From Caldimicrobium sp. (GTDB lineage: Bacteria; Desulfobacterota; Thermodesulfobacteria; Thermodesulfobacteriales; Thermodesulfobacteriaceae), in NCBI GenBank assembly GCA_025059715.1, contig JANXCE010000016.1, positions 1-43,356 on the forward strand: DNA of 43,356 nt, in the 5' to 3' direction. A program made the position numbers and the translations under genes. The notes beneath the pieces are model-generated. The model was not told the DNA's origin, did not search any database, and saw only the letters and a program-made list of their open reading frames with translations. This document shows, piece by piece, positions 14,136 through 20,712 of this stretch. Position 1 is the stretch's first letter; each line of letters opens with the position of its first letter.

Positions 14136-14471
14136 TTAGAAAGTAAGGGAGTTTTTGAAAAGGTCCTTCACATTGCCCTGTATTTTGATCTTACCCTGAA
14201 AGTAGAATCTAATAGCTCGGGAAGGATTTTCTAAGATCTTTTTCAAGGTTTCAAAATCAAGGCTTATTAAAGGAAAGCTTTTTTCAATATCTTCGGTTTC
14301 TAATATTTCTTGAGGCGTTATTAGAAATAGATATTTTGTTAAAGGGCCACAGTGGATTTCTAATAGAAAGGTCTGGGCTACTTGTTCAAGCTTATCATGA
14401 TGAGAATTTAAAAAACAAAGTATTTCTTCCTTAGAAGGGCTTAGAGAGGAGTTAAAATTCTGTGGGCACAT
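14136..14471 (-). CDS. Small protein, possible SCP2-like lipid-binding fold
   Basis: Last gene of the ATPase operon. About 111 residues from ATG 14471 (an AGGAG lies 12 bases upstream; TTG at 14504 is an alternative). The C-terminal part has IRFYFQGKIKIQGNVKDL, which resembles the lipid-pocket strands of SCP2-type sterol-carrier domains, but the match is short. It overlaps the preceding gene by 20 bases, so translational coupling is likely. Function unknown. Confidence 0.55.
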   Translation of the reverse strand: MCPQNFNSSLSPSKEEILCFLNSHHDKLEQVAQTFLLEIHCGPLTKYLFLITPQEILETEDIEKSFPLISLDFETLKKILENPSRAIRFYFQGKIKIQGNVKDLFKNSLTF

Positions 14472-14709
14472 ATATGATCTTTTCTCCTGAGGCAATTTTT
14501 TCAATAAGTTGATCTAAAGTTTTATAGGCATCCTTTTCAGATTTGAAGATACCCAGTACTGCTGGATTCATGGGCGCAGGAAGATGGGCAACAACTTTAT
14601 AGACCTCTACCTTTTTACCATGTTCCGCAATGCGAGTCTCTTCTACTGAAATGTAAACAATAAAAGAAAGATTTATGTATCGCCCGCTTCTGGTTCTTAT
14701 AAAGGACAT
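14452..14709 (-). CDS. Small unknown protein in ATPase operon
   Basis: 85 residues, beginning MSFIRTRSGRYINLSFIV. The N-terminal half looks beta-rich (RYINLSFIVYISVEE) and is followed by a short helix KSEKDAYKTLDQLIEKI. No metal motif or membrane span. Starts 3 bases after the coiled-coil gene's stop and overlaps the next gene. No family recognised. Confidence 0.6.
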   Translation of the reverse strand: MSFIRTRSGRYINLSFIVYISVEETRIAEHGKKVEVYKVVAHLPAPMNPAVLGIFKSEKDAYKTLDQLIEKIASGEKIIYVPTEF

Positions 14710-14712
14710 AAG

Positions 14713-14991
14713 TTATTTTTCTTTTCTCTCCCTTGATTTTAATACTTCTTTAGCGCCCTCAAGGGCACCTTGAGCAGCTCCTTTTAACACCTGAAAGGCC
14801 AGTTCCGCTACTTCAATAGCAGATTTACCAATTTCACTCGCTAAAGCAGTTATTCTAAAGAGTAATTCCTGGGAAGTCTCCTTAAGCTCTCTAAACGCTC
14901 TTTCTCCCTCAGTGGCCTTTAGCTTACTTTTTAATTCCTCAAGTTCTGCCTTGATTTGTTCAAGTTCTCTTTCTAAGTTTTTCTCACTCAT
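14713..14991 (-). CDS. Small coiled-coil protein in ATPase operon
   Basis: 92 residues from ATG 14991, chosen because an AAGGAGG lies just upstream; the open frame extends to 15030. Residues 4-50 form a charged heptad-rich coiled coil (Glu/Lys/Leu), followed by an Ala/Gly-rich amphipathic region (AELAFQVLKGAAQGALEGAKEVL) that could lie on a membrane, somewhat like phasins or apolipoprotein-type helices. It overlaps the end of the ATPase gene by 8 bases. Confidence 0.65.
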   Translation of the reverse strand: MSEKNLERELEQIKAELEELKSKLKATEGERAFRELKETSQELLFRITALASEIGKSAIEVAELAFQVLKGAAQGALEGAKEVLKSRERKEK

Positions 14992-17101
14992 GGTTTGTCC
15001 TCCTTGAAGATTTATTTTCAGACAATACAAAATCCCTTAAAGCCATTAGTCCTAAACCAAGGGTTCCACCATTGTTCAGAAGGGTGCTAAGGGCAGGATT
15101 AATAAGTCCTAAAACTGACAACACAAGCCCTAATCCGTTAATCAGATTATTATAAAAATAAAGTCTTGTTAATCTATCTCTTAAAGCTACTGAAAGATCA
15201 TATGAAAGCACCAAATCCCAAAGATTTGGGGTTAGGACTAAATCAGCCACTTCTAAGGCCACTTCTGCACCCTGAGCGAAGGTTATTCCTACATCCGCAA
15301 GAGTTAAAGCAGGAGAATCGTTCAGTCCATCTCCAACAAAGGCAATAACTCTACCCTCCTTTTTTAGTCTTTTCACTAACTCCGCCTTCTCTTGAGGTAG
15401 CATCCTGGCAAAATAGGTATCTATTCCCAGTTTTTTACTTAGATACATAGCTACTTGTTCGTTATCTCCTGTGCAAAGGATTAGGTCCAATTTTTTCTCT
15501 TTCAAGGTTTCAATCACATCTCTGGCTTCAGGTTTAGGGGGGTCAATAAAGGTAAGAAGACCCTTGATATGACGAGGTTTTTCCTCTTCAATCAGATATA
15601 GAACAGATTTTCCTTCGGAATGAAATTTTTCAACGAGCTCTCTTATCTCCGGAGATACCTTTATGCGCTTTTTTAGAACGAATTTAGTGCTCCCAAGAGC
15701 ATATTTTTTGTTCTCGAGTATTCCTTCAATTCCCAAACCAAGAAAATAGTTGGAGGAAAGCCTGGGAATAAGAGGGATGTTTTTTTCTTCTGCAAGAGAT
15801 GTTATAGCCTGCGCCACAGGATGTTGAATTCTCTGTTCCAGACTAGCTGCCAATTGGAGAAGTCTCTCTTCAGTGCAGTCAAAGCATACTATATCTGCTA
15901 TCTTAGGTGACCCTAAAGTCAAGGTGCCAGTCTTATCAAAAACGACAGTATCAATTTCTGCTAATTTTTCAAATTTAGCTCCACTTTTCATCAAGATATT
16001 TCTCTTGGCAAGAAAGGTTGCAGATGTTAGCACTGTCAGCGGCGTGATGAAGTGAACCCCGGTGTAAAAGTCAAAAGTTAACACAGAAGAGGCTTTTTTA
16101 AAGCCTCCATTTAAGGAAATGATGCCCAGTAAGAGAGTAGGAGCTACAAAACGGTTGGCTTCCTGTTCCGCCTTTTTCTGAAGGCGTAAGGGCTCCTTTA
16201 TACCCTCTTCAATGAGTCGAACAATACCTGCAAAAACCGTCTCTTCACCAGTTTTTTCAACCTCCACAATTATTTTCCCTTCTACTAACACGGTGCCGGC
16301 ATAAACTTTATCTCCTGGTTTTTTATGGACAGGTTTAGATTCTCCGGTGAGAGAACTTTGGTTCACTAAGGCCTCGCCCTCGCAAACCTTTCCATCAATG
16401 AGAATTTTTCTCCCTGAATAGACCACGACCTTATCTCCGGGTTTCAGGCTCTCTGGTGAAACCTCTACAATCTTTCCATCCTCAATGTAGAGATAAGCAA
16501 TGTTTTCTTTGTGATCAAAAAGGGCTTTAAGACGTGCCTCAGCTTTCTTTTCAACTAGGTCTTCCAAGTAATCACCTAAGGCAAGCAGCCAGACCATAAA
16601 ATGAGCAGAGAGTGGCTGTTTAGCTAAGATAGATAAAACTAAAGCCAAAGAGTCAAGCACATGCACATCTAAATTTCTTTCTTTAAGAGAACTAAGTCCC
16701 TTTTTAAACACTGGAAAAGAGAGCATCACGGTTAATGCCGGTAAAAACCAGCTTGAAGAACCCTTCATCATCAAATAGGGGACAAAACCAAGGGAAACCC
16801 TCTTTAGCCAGGTTGATTTGTCTTCTCTTTTTGCTCCAGGTGAAACCTTAGATAATTTTTCTAAAATGCCTTCTTCTGTTTCTTGTTCAAAAAAATTAAG
16901 AAAATCTATGAGGTCGAAGTTACTTTCATTATAATAAACGATTATTTTTCCTTTATTAGGATAATAGTTGACTTTAAAAATTCCTGGGAAGCTTTTAAGA
17001 AGCTCAACCCAGGGACCATTTAGTTTCCACTTGGTAAACACCGGAGAAGAGATCTCTAATTTACCTCTACTTAGGCGGGTTAAAGTATAGGGAAGGCCCA
17101 T
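14984..17101 (-). CDS. P1B-like P-type ATPase lacking the CPC motif
   Basis: ATP-driven membrane pump related to heavy-metal ATPases. Seen (numbering from the upstream GTG at 17107): a degenerate N-terminal HMA-like domain (residues 1-70) without C-x-x-C, TGES of the A domain (254-257), DKTGTLT with the phosphorylated Asp (391), HPVAQAI of the N domain, and GDGLNDSPAL. The transmembrane metal site before the P domain, normally CPC or a variant, reads DFYTGVHFITP: no cysteine at all. The substrate may therefore differ from Cu, Zn or Cd. Start ATG 17101 or GTG 17107; no clear ribosome site. About 705 residues. Embedded among six small genes, see findings. Confidence 0.88.
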   Translation of the reverse strand: MGLPYTLTRLSRGKLEISSPVFTKWKLNGPWVELLKSFPGIFKVNYYPNKGKIIVYYNESNFDLIDFLNFFEQETEEGILEKLSKVSPGAKREDKSTWLKRVSLGFVPYLMMKGSSSWFLPALTVMLSFPVFKKGLSSLKERNLDVHVLDSLALVLSILAKQPLSAHFMVWLLALGDYLEDLVEKKAEARLKALFDHKENIAYLYIEDGKIVEVSPESLKPGDKVVVYSGRKILIDGKVCEGEALVNQSSLTGESKPVHKKPGDKVYAGTVLVEGKIIVEVEKTGEETVFAGIVRLIEEGIKEPLRLQKKAEQEANRFVAPTLLLGIISLNGGFKKASSVLTFDFYTGVHFITPLTVLTSATFLAKRNILMKSGAKFEKLAEIDTVVFDKTGTLTLGSPKIADIVCFDCTEERLLQLAASLEQRIQHPVAQAITSLAEEKNIPLIPRLSSNYFLGLGIEGILENKKYALGSTKFVLKKRIKVSPEIRELVEKFHSEGKSVLYLIEEEKPRHIKGLLTFIDPPKPEARDVIETLKEKKLDLILCTGDNEQVAMYLSKKLGIDTYFARMLPQEKAELVKRLKKEGRVIAFVGDGLNDSPALTLADVGITFAQGAEVALEVADLVLTPNLWDLVLSYDLSVALRDRLTRLYFYNNLINGLGLVLSVLGLINPALSTLLNNGGTLGLGLMALRDFVLSENKSSRRTNHE

Positions 17102-17112
17102 AAGCACTGATT

Positions 17113-17316
17113 CTATTGAGTGGGCTTTAATTCTTTGGTTGCCTTTACTTCCAGAGCTTTTACCATGGCCTCTATTTCCTGAAGTGTCTGATGCATCCTT
17201 TGTTCCTCTCTGGTTTTGTGAATAACATATAGAATAACGAGCCCTGATAGGGCGCCTAAGGAAAAACTAAAGGGACCACTACAGATTATCTTAGTGATGA
17301 AGTTTGTTACGCCCAT
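17113..17316 (-). CDS. Single-span small membrane protein
   Basis: 67 residues: one hydrophobic span (FSFSLGALSGLVILYVI, about residues 16-32), then a charged, helical cytoplasmic tail. Strong GGAGGAGAAA site before ATG. It sits between the other membrane protein gene and the ATPase (6-base gap), so it is probably an accessory subunit. No family recognised. Confidence 0.65.
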   Translation of the reverse strand: MGVTNFITKIICSGPFSFSLGALSGLVILYVIHKTREEQRMHQTLQEIEAMVKALEVKATKELKPTQ

Positions 17317-17331
17317 ATTTTCTCCTCCCTC

Positions 17332-17655
17332 TTAGCCAAGTTGTTCTCTAATTTTTTGCAGGAGTTCCTGTTGCTTTTGTAAGATGGAGATTTTTCTCTC
17401 TACTTCCTGTCTATAAAGATGTTTTGCCTCTTCCCACAGATCTTCCCAAAATTCCTTTGCTTCATCCATTGAAGCGCTTACCCAGTGGCTAAAACCAACA
17501 AGTTCTTTCGCTCCTAATAACAGTAATGGACGCGCCTCACGACTCAAGCGATTTAGCACAACAAGAGCTCCAATAGTGCCCAAACCGTAAAGAAAGAAAG
17601 TTCCAGATATACAACTCCCAATAGCCTTACAAATTTTGAGCTCGCAGATACTCAT
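17332..17655 (-). CDS. Small membrane protein with coiled-coil tail
   Basis: 107 residues from ATG 17655: this start has AAGGAGG six bases upstream, and a longer frame (to 17673) would translate that ribosome site. N-terminal Cys-containing segment CELKICKAIGSCISG leads into a hydrophobic span (GTFFLYGLGTIGALVVL), then an amphipathic, Trp-containing helix and a Gln/Glu/Lys coiled coil at the C-terminus. Resembles small DUF5132-like proteins found near metal ATPases, though this is tentative. Confidence 0.6.
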   Translation of the reverse strand: MSICELKICKAIGSCISGTFFLYGLGTIGALVVLNRLSREARPLLLLGAKELVGFSHWVSASMDEAKEFWEDLWEEAKHLYRQEVERKISILQKQQELLQKIREQLG

Positions 17656-17669
17656 CCCAAACCTCCTTT

Positions 17670-18038
17670 TCAATGAGATTTTTTAATAAGGGGCATTATA
17701 ATTTGGGAACAAATTAAAAAACTCAAAATCCCAACCCTTGCCCCAAGAAGCCATATCGAAAGGCATAATTTAAGAAGGGGATGCTTAAGTAAAAGTTGTA
17801 AATAGTAATTTAAGTCCTGCCTATCAAATTTGATTTTCTTTCTACACTGAAAATCCCTGAGCAGAGTGTCTCCCAGACTACCTGGAATCGTCCTAATCTT
17901 CAAGGTCTTTACGCCATCTTTGTCGGATATATCCACAATTCCGGGGAAGGCCTTAATGGCGCCTTTAAAAAGTTCTTTCTCTACAAGAGTATTAAATCTG
18001 AAAAGATAGGCTCCATTGTGTTGGCTAATTTTTTCCAT
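17670..18038 (-). CDS. HMA-like domain protein with C-terminal membrane span
   Basis: First gene of the ATPase operon, 122 residues. Residues 1-60 have the beta-alpha-beta pattern and AFPGIVDISDKDGVKTLKIR block of an HMA-type metallochaperone domain but, like the ATPase's own N-terminus, have no C-x-x-C metal site. A hydrophobic segment (residues 85-115) anchors it to the membrane. It may dock with the equally degenerate N-terminal domain of the ATPase; this is inference. Confidence 0.65.
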   Translation of the reverse strand: MEKISQHNGAYLFRFNTLVEKELFKGAIKAFPGIVDISDKDGVKTLKIRTIPGSLGDTLLRDFQCRKKIKFDRQDLNYYLQLLLKHPLLKLCLSIWLLGARVGILSFLICSQIIMPLIKKSH

Positions 18039-18151
18039 AGTGCAATCTTTAGATAATTTAGCACATTAAATTGATTATGTAATATTAAAAAATCATATCA
18101 TTGAATTAATTATAGTGCAATCTTGAAAAATTTTAACACATTAGGTTGATT
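18037..18151. repeat. Two 40-bp imperfect direct repeats before ATPase operon
   Basis: 18037-18076 and 18112-18151 share 33 of 40 bases by eye; both begin ATAGTGCAATCTT and end with CACATTAxxTTGATT. They fill the intergenic region between the 18151 gene and the HMA-like gene. The copy at 18112 covers the -10/-35 region of the candidate promoter and the copy at 18037 touches the ATG of the HMA-like gene. Confidence 0.75.
18109..18137 (-). promoter_or_regulatory. Candidate promoter of ATPase operon
   Basis: Minus-strand TATAAT at 18114-18109 with a GTTAAA-like -35 seventeen bases upstream; it would give a leader of roughly 65 bases before the ATG at 18038. It overlaps the second 40-bp repeat. 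Confidence 0.45.
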
Positions 18152-18504: not shown

Positions 18505-20712
18505 TTAGATCCCCTTTACTAAGGATTTGTAGAGGGCTCTATTATTTCTCCAAAGGTCAAAGCGATCAAGATGGAGTAGCTTTGTCCAAACCTTAGCAAA
18601 GTTTCTAACAAAGAGTTCCTTTCCATCCTCTGCAGCATAAACCTCGCAGATACTTCTTAATTCTTCATGATGACCAAAAATGAGGTCTGTCCTAGTGGCA
18701 AGCCATTTACGAACCCCGCTTTTTCTATCTATGCCTTCGTAGTAATATTTATTTTCGTCTAAGGGGCGCCATACCGTAGACATATCTAACAAATTTTGGA
18801 AAAATTCTGTGGTAAGTATTCCTACTTGAGTAGTAAGGATTCCATAGGGTTCCTGTTCATAGACGATGCCTAATACCCTAAGTCCACCGTATAGAGTAAC
18901 TAATTCTGGGACACTAAGAGTTAATAATTGTGCTTTATCTATTAGGAGTTCCTCCGCTTTTACTTTTTTATTTATAGAGGGATCTTTGATGTAATTTCTA
19001 AAGCCACAAGCTATAGGTTCAAGCTGCTCCCAAAAGAAAACATCAATTTGATCCTGTTGGGCATCAACTCTTCCTGAGATAAAGGGTATTTTTATATCAA
19101 ATCCAGCTTTTTGAGCTGCGGTTTCTATTACAGCGCAACTTCCCAGAGCTAACAGATCGGAGATGGAGACCCCTTTGTCCGGAGTTCCTCTTTCCTTTTC
19201 AAAGAGGTTTTTTATCTGTTGAAGAGCTTCTATGACTTTCTTTAAGACTTCGGGTTTATTTACTATCCATTTGTTTTGAGGATACAGTCTTATTCTTGCT
19301 CCGTTTAAACCTCCTTTCCTATCGGAGTCCCGATAGGTGACTATGGCAGAAAAGGCGCAGTAGAGGATTTGAGATGGGCTTATCCCCAAATTCAAAATTT
19401 TTTCCTTAAGGTAGACTATGTCTGCCTCTTCAAGGGGTTTATAGGTGGAGCTTGGTAAGCTCTCTTGCCAGATAAAGGTCTCCTTGGGAACTTCAGGTCC
19501 TAAATAGCACTCCTTAGGTCCCATATCTCTATGTATTAGTTTAAACCAGGCTTTGGCAAAGGCTTCTTCAAATTCCTTTGGATTATTCAAGAATCTCTTG
19601 GCAATTTCTGCATATACGGGATCGAACCGCAGTGCTAAATCTGCAGTTAGCATCATGGGAGGATGTTTTTTATTTGGGTCATGGGCATCGGGTATTATGG
19701 CAGGTGCTCCTTTAGCAACCCATTGATGTTTGCCTGCTGGGCTCTTGGTAAGTTCCCATTCATAGGTAAAAAGAAACTTAAGATAGCTTAGACCGAATTT
19801 GGTGGGAGTAGCAGACCAGGCTAACTCAAAGCCGCTGGTAAAGGTATCTGGTCCCTTTCCCGAGCCCAGAGAATATTTCCATCCAAGACCCTGATTTTCT
19901 ACATCTGAGGAACTGGGATCAGGACCAAGGAATGAATCGGGGCCTGCTCCGTGACATTTGCCAAAAGCATGCCCACCGGCAATAAGAGCTACGGTCTCTT
20001 CATCGGTCATTCCCATACGAGAAAAGGCTATCCTAATCTGTTTTGCAGAGGCCACAGGGTCGGGGTTCCCCTCCGGTCCTTCGGGATTGACATAAATTAG
20101 CCCCATTTCTGTTGCAGCAAAGGGTTTTTCCAAAACTCCTTCTTTAAACCTCTCTTTACCAGTAAGCATTTCCACCTCTGGACCCCAGTCAGGACTCTCG
20201 TCAGGCTCCCAAAGATCTTCTCTTCCACCCCCAAAACCAATAGTTTTAACCCCCATGCTCTCTAAAGCAACATTACCAGCAAGAATGATCAGATCAGCCC
20301 AAGAGAGTTTTCTACCATATTTTTGTTTAATGGGCCAAAGAAGCCTAATAGCCTTGTCTAAATTAATATTATCAGGCCAATTTATTCTTGGAGGAAACCT
20401 CATTTCTCCTCTTCTTGCCCCACCCCTTCCATCATAAATCCGATAACTTCCGGCACTGTGCCAGGCCATTCGTATAAAAAGAGGACCATAATGGCCAAAA
20501 TCTGCAGGCCACCAGTCTTGAGAATTCTTCATGAGCTGTTCCAAATCTTTCTTTACTTCCTCTAAATTTAGTTTTTCGAACTCAGTAGCATAATCAAAAT
20601 CCTCTCCATAGGGATTACCTCTTGGACATTCTTGACGCAATACCTTTAAATTAAGCCTCTCCGGCCACCAATCAGTAATCCAACGTCTTCTTTTCTTTAC
20701 CTCTTCCTTCAT
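18505..20712 (-). CDS. katG: Catalase-peroxidase
   Basis: Haem enzyme decomposing hydrogen peroxide. Seen: 735 residues, normal. Distal RMAWHSAG with Arg81, Trp84 and His85; Tyr207 in GLIYVNPEG and Met233 in SRMGM, which with Trp84 form the KatG-specific Met-Tyr-Trp crosslink; proximal haem ligand His248 in IAGGHAFGKCHG. The second, inactive peroxidase-like half follows (about 420-735). GGAGGAGGAGG ribosome site before the ATG at 20712, and its own terminator. Presence in an apparent anaerobe implies transient oxygen exposure. Confidence 0.98.
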   Translation of the reverse strand: MKEEVKKRRRWITDWWPERLNLKVLRQECPRGNPYGEDFDYATEFEKLNLEEVKKDLEQLMKNSQDWWPADFGHYGPLFIRMAWHSAGSYRIYDGRGGARRGEMRFPPRINWPDNINLDKAIRLLWPIKQKYGRKLSWADLIILAGNVALESMGVKTIGFGGGREDLWEPDESPDWGPEVEMLTGKERFKEGVLEKPFAATEMGLIYVNPEGPEGNPDPVASAKQIRIAFSRMGMTDEETVALIAGGHAFGKCHGAGPDSFLGPDPSSSDVENQGLGWKYSLGSGKGPDTFTSGFELAWSATPTKFGLSYLKFLFTYEWELTKSPAGKHQWVAKGAPAIIPDAHDPNKKHPPMMLTADLALRFDPVYAEIAKRFLNNPKEFEEAFAKAWFKLIHRDMGPKECYLGPEVPKETFIWQESLPSSTYKPLEEADIVYLKEKILNLGISPSQILYCAFSAIVTYRDSDRKGGLNGARIRLYPQNKWIVNKPEVLKKVIEALQQIKNLFEKERGTPDKGVSISDLLALGSCAVIETAAQKAGFDIKIPFISGRVDAQQDQIDVFFWEQLEPIACGFRNYIKDPSINKKVKAEELLIDKAQLLTLSVPELVTLYGGLRVLGIVYEQEPYGILTTQVGILTTEFFQNLLDMSTVWRPLDENKYYYEGIDRKSGVRKWLATRTDLIFGHHEELRSICEVYAAEDGKELFVRNFAKVWTKLLHLDRFDLWRNNRALYKSLVKGI

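Follow-up and report, generated by a model that had tools for sequence, protein, structure and literature searches.

A Conserved Eight-Gene Membrane Cassette with Pho-Box Promoters Built around a P1B-6-Related ATPase in Thermodesulfobacteriaceae

We describe a cassette of eight genes, conserved in five Thermodesulfobacteriaceae genomes, in which a P-type ATPase with an unusual transmembrane site is encoded together with small membrane, coiled-coil and SCP2-fold proteins and is preceded by promoters that carry the Pho box of pstS. It was found on a stretch of DNA of 43,356 nucleotides (the window) from Caldimicrobium sp., a thermophilic sulfur bacterium; it proves genuine and conserved, and it tells more than the original description suggested. 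The Pho-box promoters and an eighth gene, p8, both overlooked in the original prediction, are the best clue to function. Our best explanation, which we hold to be about evenly balanced between right and wrong, is that the cassette encodes a Pho-induced membrane platform of the ferrosome/PacL type that would pump a hard cation (Mg, Mn, Ca or Fe).

Results

Gene Content and Conservation. The tightly packed seven-gene operon that had been proposed for the minus strand was recovered in full, with all seven open reading frames, p1 to p7, lying nearly back-to-back at 14136-18038 and with overlaps between p4 and p5 and between p6 and p7 (Table 1). Just upstream of p1 lies p8, which had been missed and is part of the cassette; its conserved motif is ERDTFxxxxDRxxxIESxVxGGxxE. 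Alignment of orthologues led us to revise four starts, those of p2 (ATG 17655, replacing TTG 17673), p4 (ATG 17101), p5 (ATG 14991) and p7 (ATG 14471). No metal-sensor gene is found in the cassette. The same alignment places an invariant Cys in or beside the membrane span of each of p1 (C110, within the span), p2 (C15) and p3 (C12; alignment numbering), while the Cys of the ATPase site is gone.

Table 1. Features of the cassette in the window
Feature	Start	End	Strand	Description
Pho box upstream of p8	18416	18457	-	four 11-bp direct repeats TTTAACTTTTC TTTAAACTTCT TGAAACTTTAT TTTAAAAATAA
p8	18151	18360	-	~69 aa (79 aa from GTG 18390), family unassigned
p1	17670	18038	-	122 aa, weakly HMA_2-like domain and C-terminal membrane span
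p2	17332	17655	-	107 aa, Glu-rich helix following a membrane span; PacL/DUF6110-like scaffold
p3	17113	17316	-	67 aa, short membrane span and coiled coil
p4	14984	17101	-	705 aa, P1B-6-related P-type ATPase, HMA_2-like N-terminus
p5	14713	14991	-	92 aa, coiled coil, then Ala/Gly-rich helix
p6	14452	14709	-	85 aa, predicted alpha/beta protein
p7	14136	14471	-	111 aa, SCP2-fold lipid-binding-type protein

Five of the 41 genomes sampled from the order carry the variant ATPase, and all five belong to the Thermodesulfobacteriaceae: the genome of the window (G000, a 1.84 Mb draft), G289, G305, G313 and G306, the last four with ATPases that are 80%, 75%, 52% and 49% identical, respectively, to the window copy. 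Beyond these five, the best ATPase match in a wider sample of the phylum reaches 37% identity and belongs to another type. Our genome searches were centred on this phylum, and one scan of all genome contigs reached close relatives only. The order p1-p7 is identical in all five cassette genomes while the flanking genes differ, and p8 accompanies the cassette in 5/5; in G306 its place is the far end of the cassette, where it lies detached and on the opposite strand, with a Pho box of its own retained. Co-occurrence of the small families across genomes had been suggested as a check, and since the gene set is conserved with the ATPase in each of the five genomes the view that the accessory proteins are dedicated to it is borne out. 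Purifying selection acts on all eight genes (pN/pS 0.08-0.47), with p7 the least conserved member. Within the phylum sample p6 occurs in the cassette genomes only, as does p8 with the exception of one marginal match, and a search of PLSDB for plasmid carriage of p6 returned zero matches. Two further matters could be settled from the alignments and neighborhoods. The G313 ATPase is not a pseudogene, its frame being open for 693 aa and the flagged TAA being its own stop codon, and the genes for TauE, a 138-aa membrane protein and KatG are not cassette members, their presence varying between cassette genomes. The catalase-peroxidase (KatG-type) gene, at 18505-20712, adjoins the cassette in the window and in G289 and does not do so in G305.

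The ATPase and Its Transmembrane Site. The p4 protein passes the curated heavy-metal P1B model TIGR01525 with 436.7 bits (cut-off 346.25), and the P-type catalytic motifs TGES, DKTGT, HP, TGDN and GDGxND are intact and invariant in the five orthologues. A P-type ATPase tree had been recommended at the outset, and in the maximum-likelihood tree that we computed, which is midpoint rooted and has a long stem, the variants form the sister clade of P1B-6 and lie outside the P1B-6 clade itself, with support of 100/98 for the joint clade and 97/92 for P1B-6 without the variants. As had been described, the ATPase has no CPC and its TM4 reads DFYTGVHFITP (D344-F-Y-T347-G). TM6 contains N676-N677 where P1B-6 proteins have HN, a pair known as a feature of P1B6 (PMC9374683). 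The site alignment separates the two groups cleanly: D[YF]xC in TM4 and HN in TM6 are found in 25/25 P1B-6 proteins and 0/5 variants, and D[FY][YH]T and NN in all five variants. Column by column, the changes from P1B-6 to variant are Cys to Thr in TM4, His to Asn in TM6 and Ser to Tyr or His. The TM4 Asp is invariant and kept in 5/5 variants, two of which have a His beside it, and the polar transmembrane residues T347, N676, N677 and N654 (TM5) are likewise invariant in the five orthologues. Because neither the site residues nor the position in the tree are those of P1B-6, we label these ATPases P1B-6-related rather than P1B-6 members.

The N-terminus of p4 matches HMA_2 (hhalign 95.8%) and, as originally noted, lacks CxxC. 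This absence had been read as a sign of novelty, a reading that we reject: none of the 25 canonical P1B-6 ATPases inspected has CxxC in its N-terminal domain, so that its loss carries no meaning. Nor does the cassette stand as an isolated new family, since it is homologous to P1B-6 loci and the pump, like the scaffold-like proteins beside it, is related to platforms of the P1B-6/PacL type. The step from ligand loss to a non-standard substrate remains reasonable because the transmembrane site has lost a Cys and a His kept by every member of the nearest class that we examined, although the baseline for the loss is this one Cys and one His and not CPC. The substrate would probably be an ion bound through oxygen, as Asp and Thr of TM4, Asn of TM5 and the paired Asn of TM6 could offer oxygen ligands in comparison to the sulfur and imidazole of P1B-6. 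We infer the substrate from ligand loss alone, and the specificity of a P-type ATPase cannot be safely deduced from motifs.

Accessory Proteins. Both p2 and p3 have counterparts in canonical P1B-6 loci. For p2 the equivalent small membrane protein of such a locus is matched with an hmmsearch E of 1e-19 (in a small local set) and an hhalign probability of 98%, and there is a weaker match, through intermediates, to DUF6110-like proteins. Proteins of the DUF6110 family have been described as resembling PacL, with genes that usually accompany those of P1B6 pumps, and the role of PacL is scaffolding (PMC9374683, PMC13043812). The p2 protein has the features of such a scaffold, namely one transmembrane span with a small-residue motif that includes an invariant G, a Glu/Ala-rich cytosolic helix and a P1B ATPase as neighbor. 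The counterpart of p3 is a protein of 68-72 aa (hmmsearch E 4.5e-5, hhalign 78%). Pfam links neither p2 nor p3 directly to DUF1490 or DUF6110, and both lack the C-terminal metal-binding motif.

The description of p1 as an HMA-like domain with a membrane span stands with respect to the span, while the HMA assignment is weak, with an hhalign value of 15% against the HMA_2+TM proteins of canonical P1B-6 loci. Seven of the eight aligned canonical proteins of this kind carry a His pair in their membrane part that p1 lacks. A His pair is also reported for the ferrosome cytochrome FezC (PMC10979944), to which the canonical proteins may correspond. Set against ferrosome clusters, with the Fez proteins compared by description, the cassette contains a related ATPase and a scaffold-like protein, and the heme-type His pair is absent from p1. 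In some canonical loci FeoA genes lie beside the P1B-6 gene. The genome of the window also contains, on a short contig, a canonical P1B-6 cluster (C39, 3887-7014, locus L035), made up of a DYSC/HN ATPase, two HMA_2 proteins, and PacL-like and short TM proteins, that was not found in the other genomes of the order that were searched. The GC content of C39 agrees with that of G000; with a contamination figure of 4.8% for this metagenome-assembled genome the cluster may be foreign.

For the remaining four proteins, p5, p6, p7 and p8, the canonical P1B-6 loci examined offer no counterpart. The structure of p6 is predicted with confidence (pLDDT 91.8), and nothing was matched in Pfam or NCBIfam or, below 0.3, in a Foldseek search of PDB folds. 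The assignment of the last gene, p7, as SCP2-like is supported by Pfam SCP2 (22.7 bits, cut-off 21.3), by matches of 5/5 orthologues to the SCP2 family (E up to 0.5) and by Foldseek, which returns UbiJ-SCP2 and other SCP2 structures at E of about 1e-4. This SCP2 fold is the sole pointer to lipid in the cassette.

Promoters. The first sign of a Pho box was the sequence TTTAACATT, which in the relatives of the window recurs as direct repeats of 11 bp ahead of p1 and p8. A PHO box is known as a pair of 11-nt direct repeats, with a consensus that differs from species to species (PMC4415409). The pattern matches the genome of the window in two places, one of them directly upstream of pstS; this gene belongs to a pstSCAB-phoU operon in which an OmpR-type response regulator is also encoded. 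A longer pattern was then applied genome-wide, allowing up to 3 mismatches and with the reversed pattern as control. In G289 and G305 it finds two sites per genome, at pstS and p1 only, and the reversed control finds none. In G313 it marks a handful of further sites besides p1, p8 and pstS, and in G128 it occurs at pstS and at an EAL gene; the G000 counterpart of this EAL gene lies inside the pst operon, two genes before the OmpR-type response regulator. A matrix trained on six pstS promoters only, applied to 214 kb of strand positions, ranks four cassette promoters directly after pstS, those of p8 in G289, G305 and the window and that of p1 in G305. With a score of 21.3 the p8 box is the best site of the 43 kb window, where the next unrelated one reaches 9.9, and 0/2000 dinucleotide shuffles equal it.

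In 6/6 pstS promoters and in the G128 EAL promoter the last 11-mer is followed, at a distance of exactly 5 nt, by a TAnnnT hexamer, and the same 5-nt spacing to the -10 is found in 9/10 cassette promoters (5/5 for p8, with that of G305 one unit further on, and 4/5 for p1), including the -10-like TAAACT of the window p8 promoter. The cassette promoters have 11-bp direct repeats at -35 distance in common with pstS, as expected for a Pho regulon. A Pho box adjoins the p1 start codon in 4/5 orthologues, and because the window p1 promoter, the exception, has lost its box, the genome of the window retains one at p8 only. Since the hexamer is very near the ATG in those four p1 promoters, the p1 transcripts of these relatives are probably leaderless. 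A TIGR02136-type PstS is present in 9/41 genomes of the order and all five cassette genomes are among the nine, an overlap whose chance probability would be about 2e-4 for independent genomes, an assumption that does not hold here.

Several other sites were noted along the way. In the p8-p1 gap of the window (18039-18150), where the four relatives have their Pho box, there is an imperfect direct repeat of ~40 bp, TAATGTGYTAAA...AAGATTGCACTAT, with a sigma-70-like promoter, TTGCAC-17-TATGAT, inside it. Pho-box-like sites near glycogen debranching enzyme genes in G306 (C218:1288, L107) and G313 (C9:26828, L112) hint at a possible link between phosphate control and the use of glycogen. In G313 (C49:3896-3933, L115) overlapping Pho-box-like sites lie upstream of the gene for a protein that is predicted to be secreted, may be porin-like and has no Pfam match. 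In the pst operon (L095 8213-10034) EAL-domain genes sit between phoU and the OmpR-type response regulator, which suggests a tie between c-di-GMP and phosphate signaling.

Discussion

The computed support for a Pho-induced cation-pumping platform consists of the homology of pump and scaffold, the conserved gene set, the intact catalytic motifs, the replacement of Cys by Thr and of His by Asn, and the pstS-like Pho boxes. The cassette appears to share descent with both the P1B-6 (FezB/ferrosome-type) and the PacL/DUF6110-type metal efflux platforms. Because the metal-gripping residues have been lost and the control DNA is like that of phosphate-starvation genes, a different ion is probably moved, at low phosphate. 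In the mechanism that we envision scarcity of phosphate would lead PhoB to induce the operon together with p8, and the PacL-like p2 and p3 would cluster the pump in the membrane. Driven by ATP, the pump would take a hard, oxygen-liganded cation from the cytosol, Mg2+, Mn2+ or Ca2+, or perhaps Fe2+ bound at a hard site, and deliver it either to the cell exterior or to a ferrosome-like compartment, with p7 (SCP2) and p5 (coiled coil) serving the lipid environment of the platform. As phosphate falls less Mg2+, Mn2+ and Fe2+ would be bound by phosphate compounds, so that export or storage in a compartment would be sensible; pumping would relieve the excess of free cation expected as phosphate, RNA and ATP drop. 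A more ambitious version, which we think improbable, has the ATPase compartment as a ferrosome-like organelle for phosphate economy, with a hard cation (Mg, Ca or Mn) accumulating along with phosphate or polyphosphate as counter-ion. Were it true, it would be a phosphate-storage organelle distinct from both ferrosomes and acidocalcisomes.

The identity of the ion can be argued differently, and a conventional ferrosome-type iron (or manganese) pump, with a site built from Asp, Thr, Asn, Tyr or His, is unlikely yet the foremost competitor. The nearest relatives are P1B-6 pumps, some adjoining FeoA genes, the TM4 Asp is retained, with a His beside it in two variants, and Pho control would mirror iron phosphate chemistry, low phosphate freeing Fe2+ for storage or expulsion. 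In addition, ferrosomes have been described as iron stores and FezB as a putative ferrous-iron transporter (PMC10979944, PMC12574912). Against such a pump speak the disappearance of the Cys and His that are present in 25/25 P1B-6 sequences and a p1 that has no His pair of the canonical HMA_2+TM kind. The loss of every canonical soft ligand might also mean that the ATPase no longer transports at all and has become an ATP-driven structural or signaling part. We consider this very unlikely, because the catalytic motifs and the new polar residues T347, N676, N677 and N654 are invariant in five orthologues, suggesting a site that has been re-tooled rather than one in decay.

That same absence of soft ligands, the SCP2 fold of p7 and the Pho promoters would all fit a lipid-handling or membrane-remodeling machine, at work when phospholipid is cut back in phosphate starvation, in which p7 carries lipid and the ATPase flips it. 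The ATPase, however, is clearly a P1B relative and neither P4 nor P5, the cassette has no lipid-synthesis gene, and p7 is its least conserved member, leaving the lipid machine a long way from probable. There is finally the matter of the regulator itself. Sites spaced by 11 bp are common to OmpR-family regulators, and a different member of this family with a similar repeat might bind the cassette promoters, in which case control would not be by phosphate. With a box of the same kind, at the same spacing, upstream of pstS in six genomes, and again at the G128 EAL gene whose G000 counterpart is in the pst operon near the OmpR-type response regulator, we view this as distinctly remote.

Relation to Known Systems. 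With P1B-6, taken to include FezB (the ferrosome protein that we presume to be a P1B-6 ATPase), the cassette ATPase shares its closest clade, an HMA_2 N-terminus without CxxC, the TM4 Asp and a TM6 Asn, and the loci share HMA_2 and PacL-like neighbors. The cassette differs by Thr in place of the TM4 Cys, Asn in place of the TM6 His, a p1 without the His pair, four added genes (p5-p8) and Pho control. The C. difficile fez genes have been described as Fur-repressed (PMC12574912), whereas the cassette carries Pho boxes. The combination of a P1B ATPase with small proteins that have one membrane span and a Glu-rich helix recurs with the DUF6110 proteins and, in Mycobacterium tuberculosis, in the PacL1-CtpC zinc efflux platform; CtpC, however, has the CPC (PMC9374683) that p4 lacks, and p2 and p3 differ in having neither the C-terminal metal-binding motif nor a direct DUF1490/DUF6110 Pfam match. 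The p7 protein has the fold of UbiJ and other SCP2 proteins but is short, is without a catalytic partner and sits in a transporter operon. With the pstSCAB-phoU genes of the Pho regulon the cassette shares direct 11-bp repeats and the fixed 5-nt spacing to the -10 seen at pstS. We know of no P1B-related platform in any Pho regulon, and no Pho-controlled P1B-type platform was found in the literature that we searched. The present one would tie membrane platforms of the ferrosome/PacL type to phosphate economy.

P1B-6 pumps have been called poorly characterized, with an undefined substrate (PMC9374683, PMC6884021). A sister clade in which the exchange of Cys and His for Thr and Asn, the lack of a heme-type His pair in the partner protein, the gain of an SCP2 protein and Pho promoters occur together amounts to a natural experiment on substrate choice in this family. 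The platform appears to be of the known P1B-6/ferrosome/PacL kind, set apart by its unusual ion site and an unexpected link to phosphate control.
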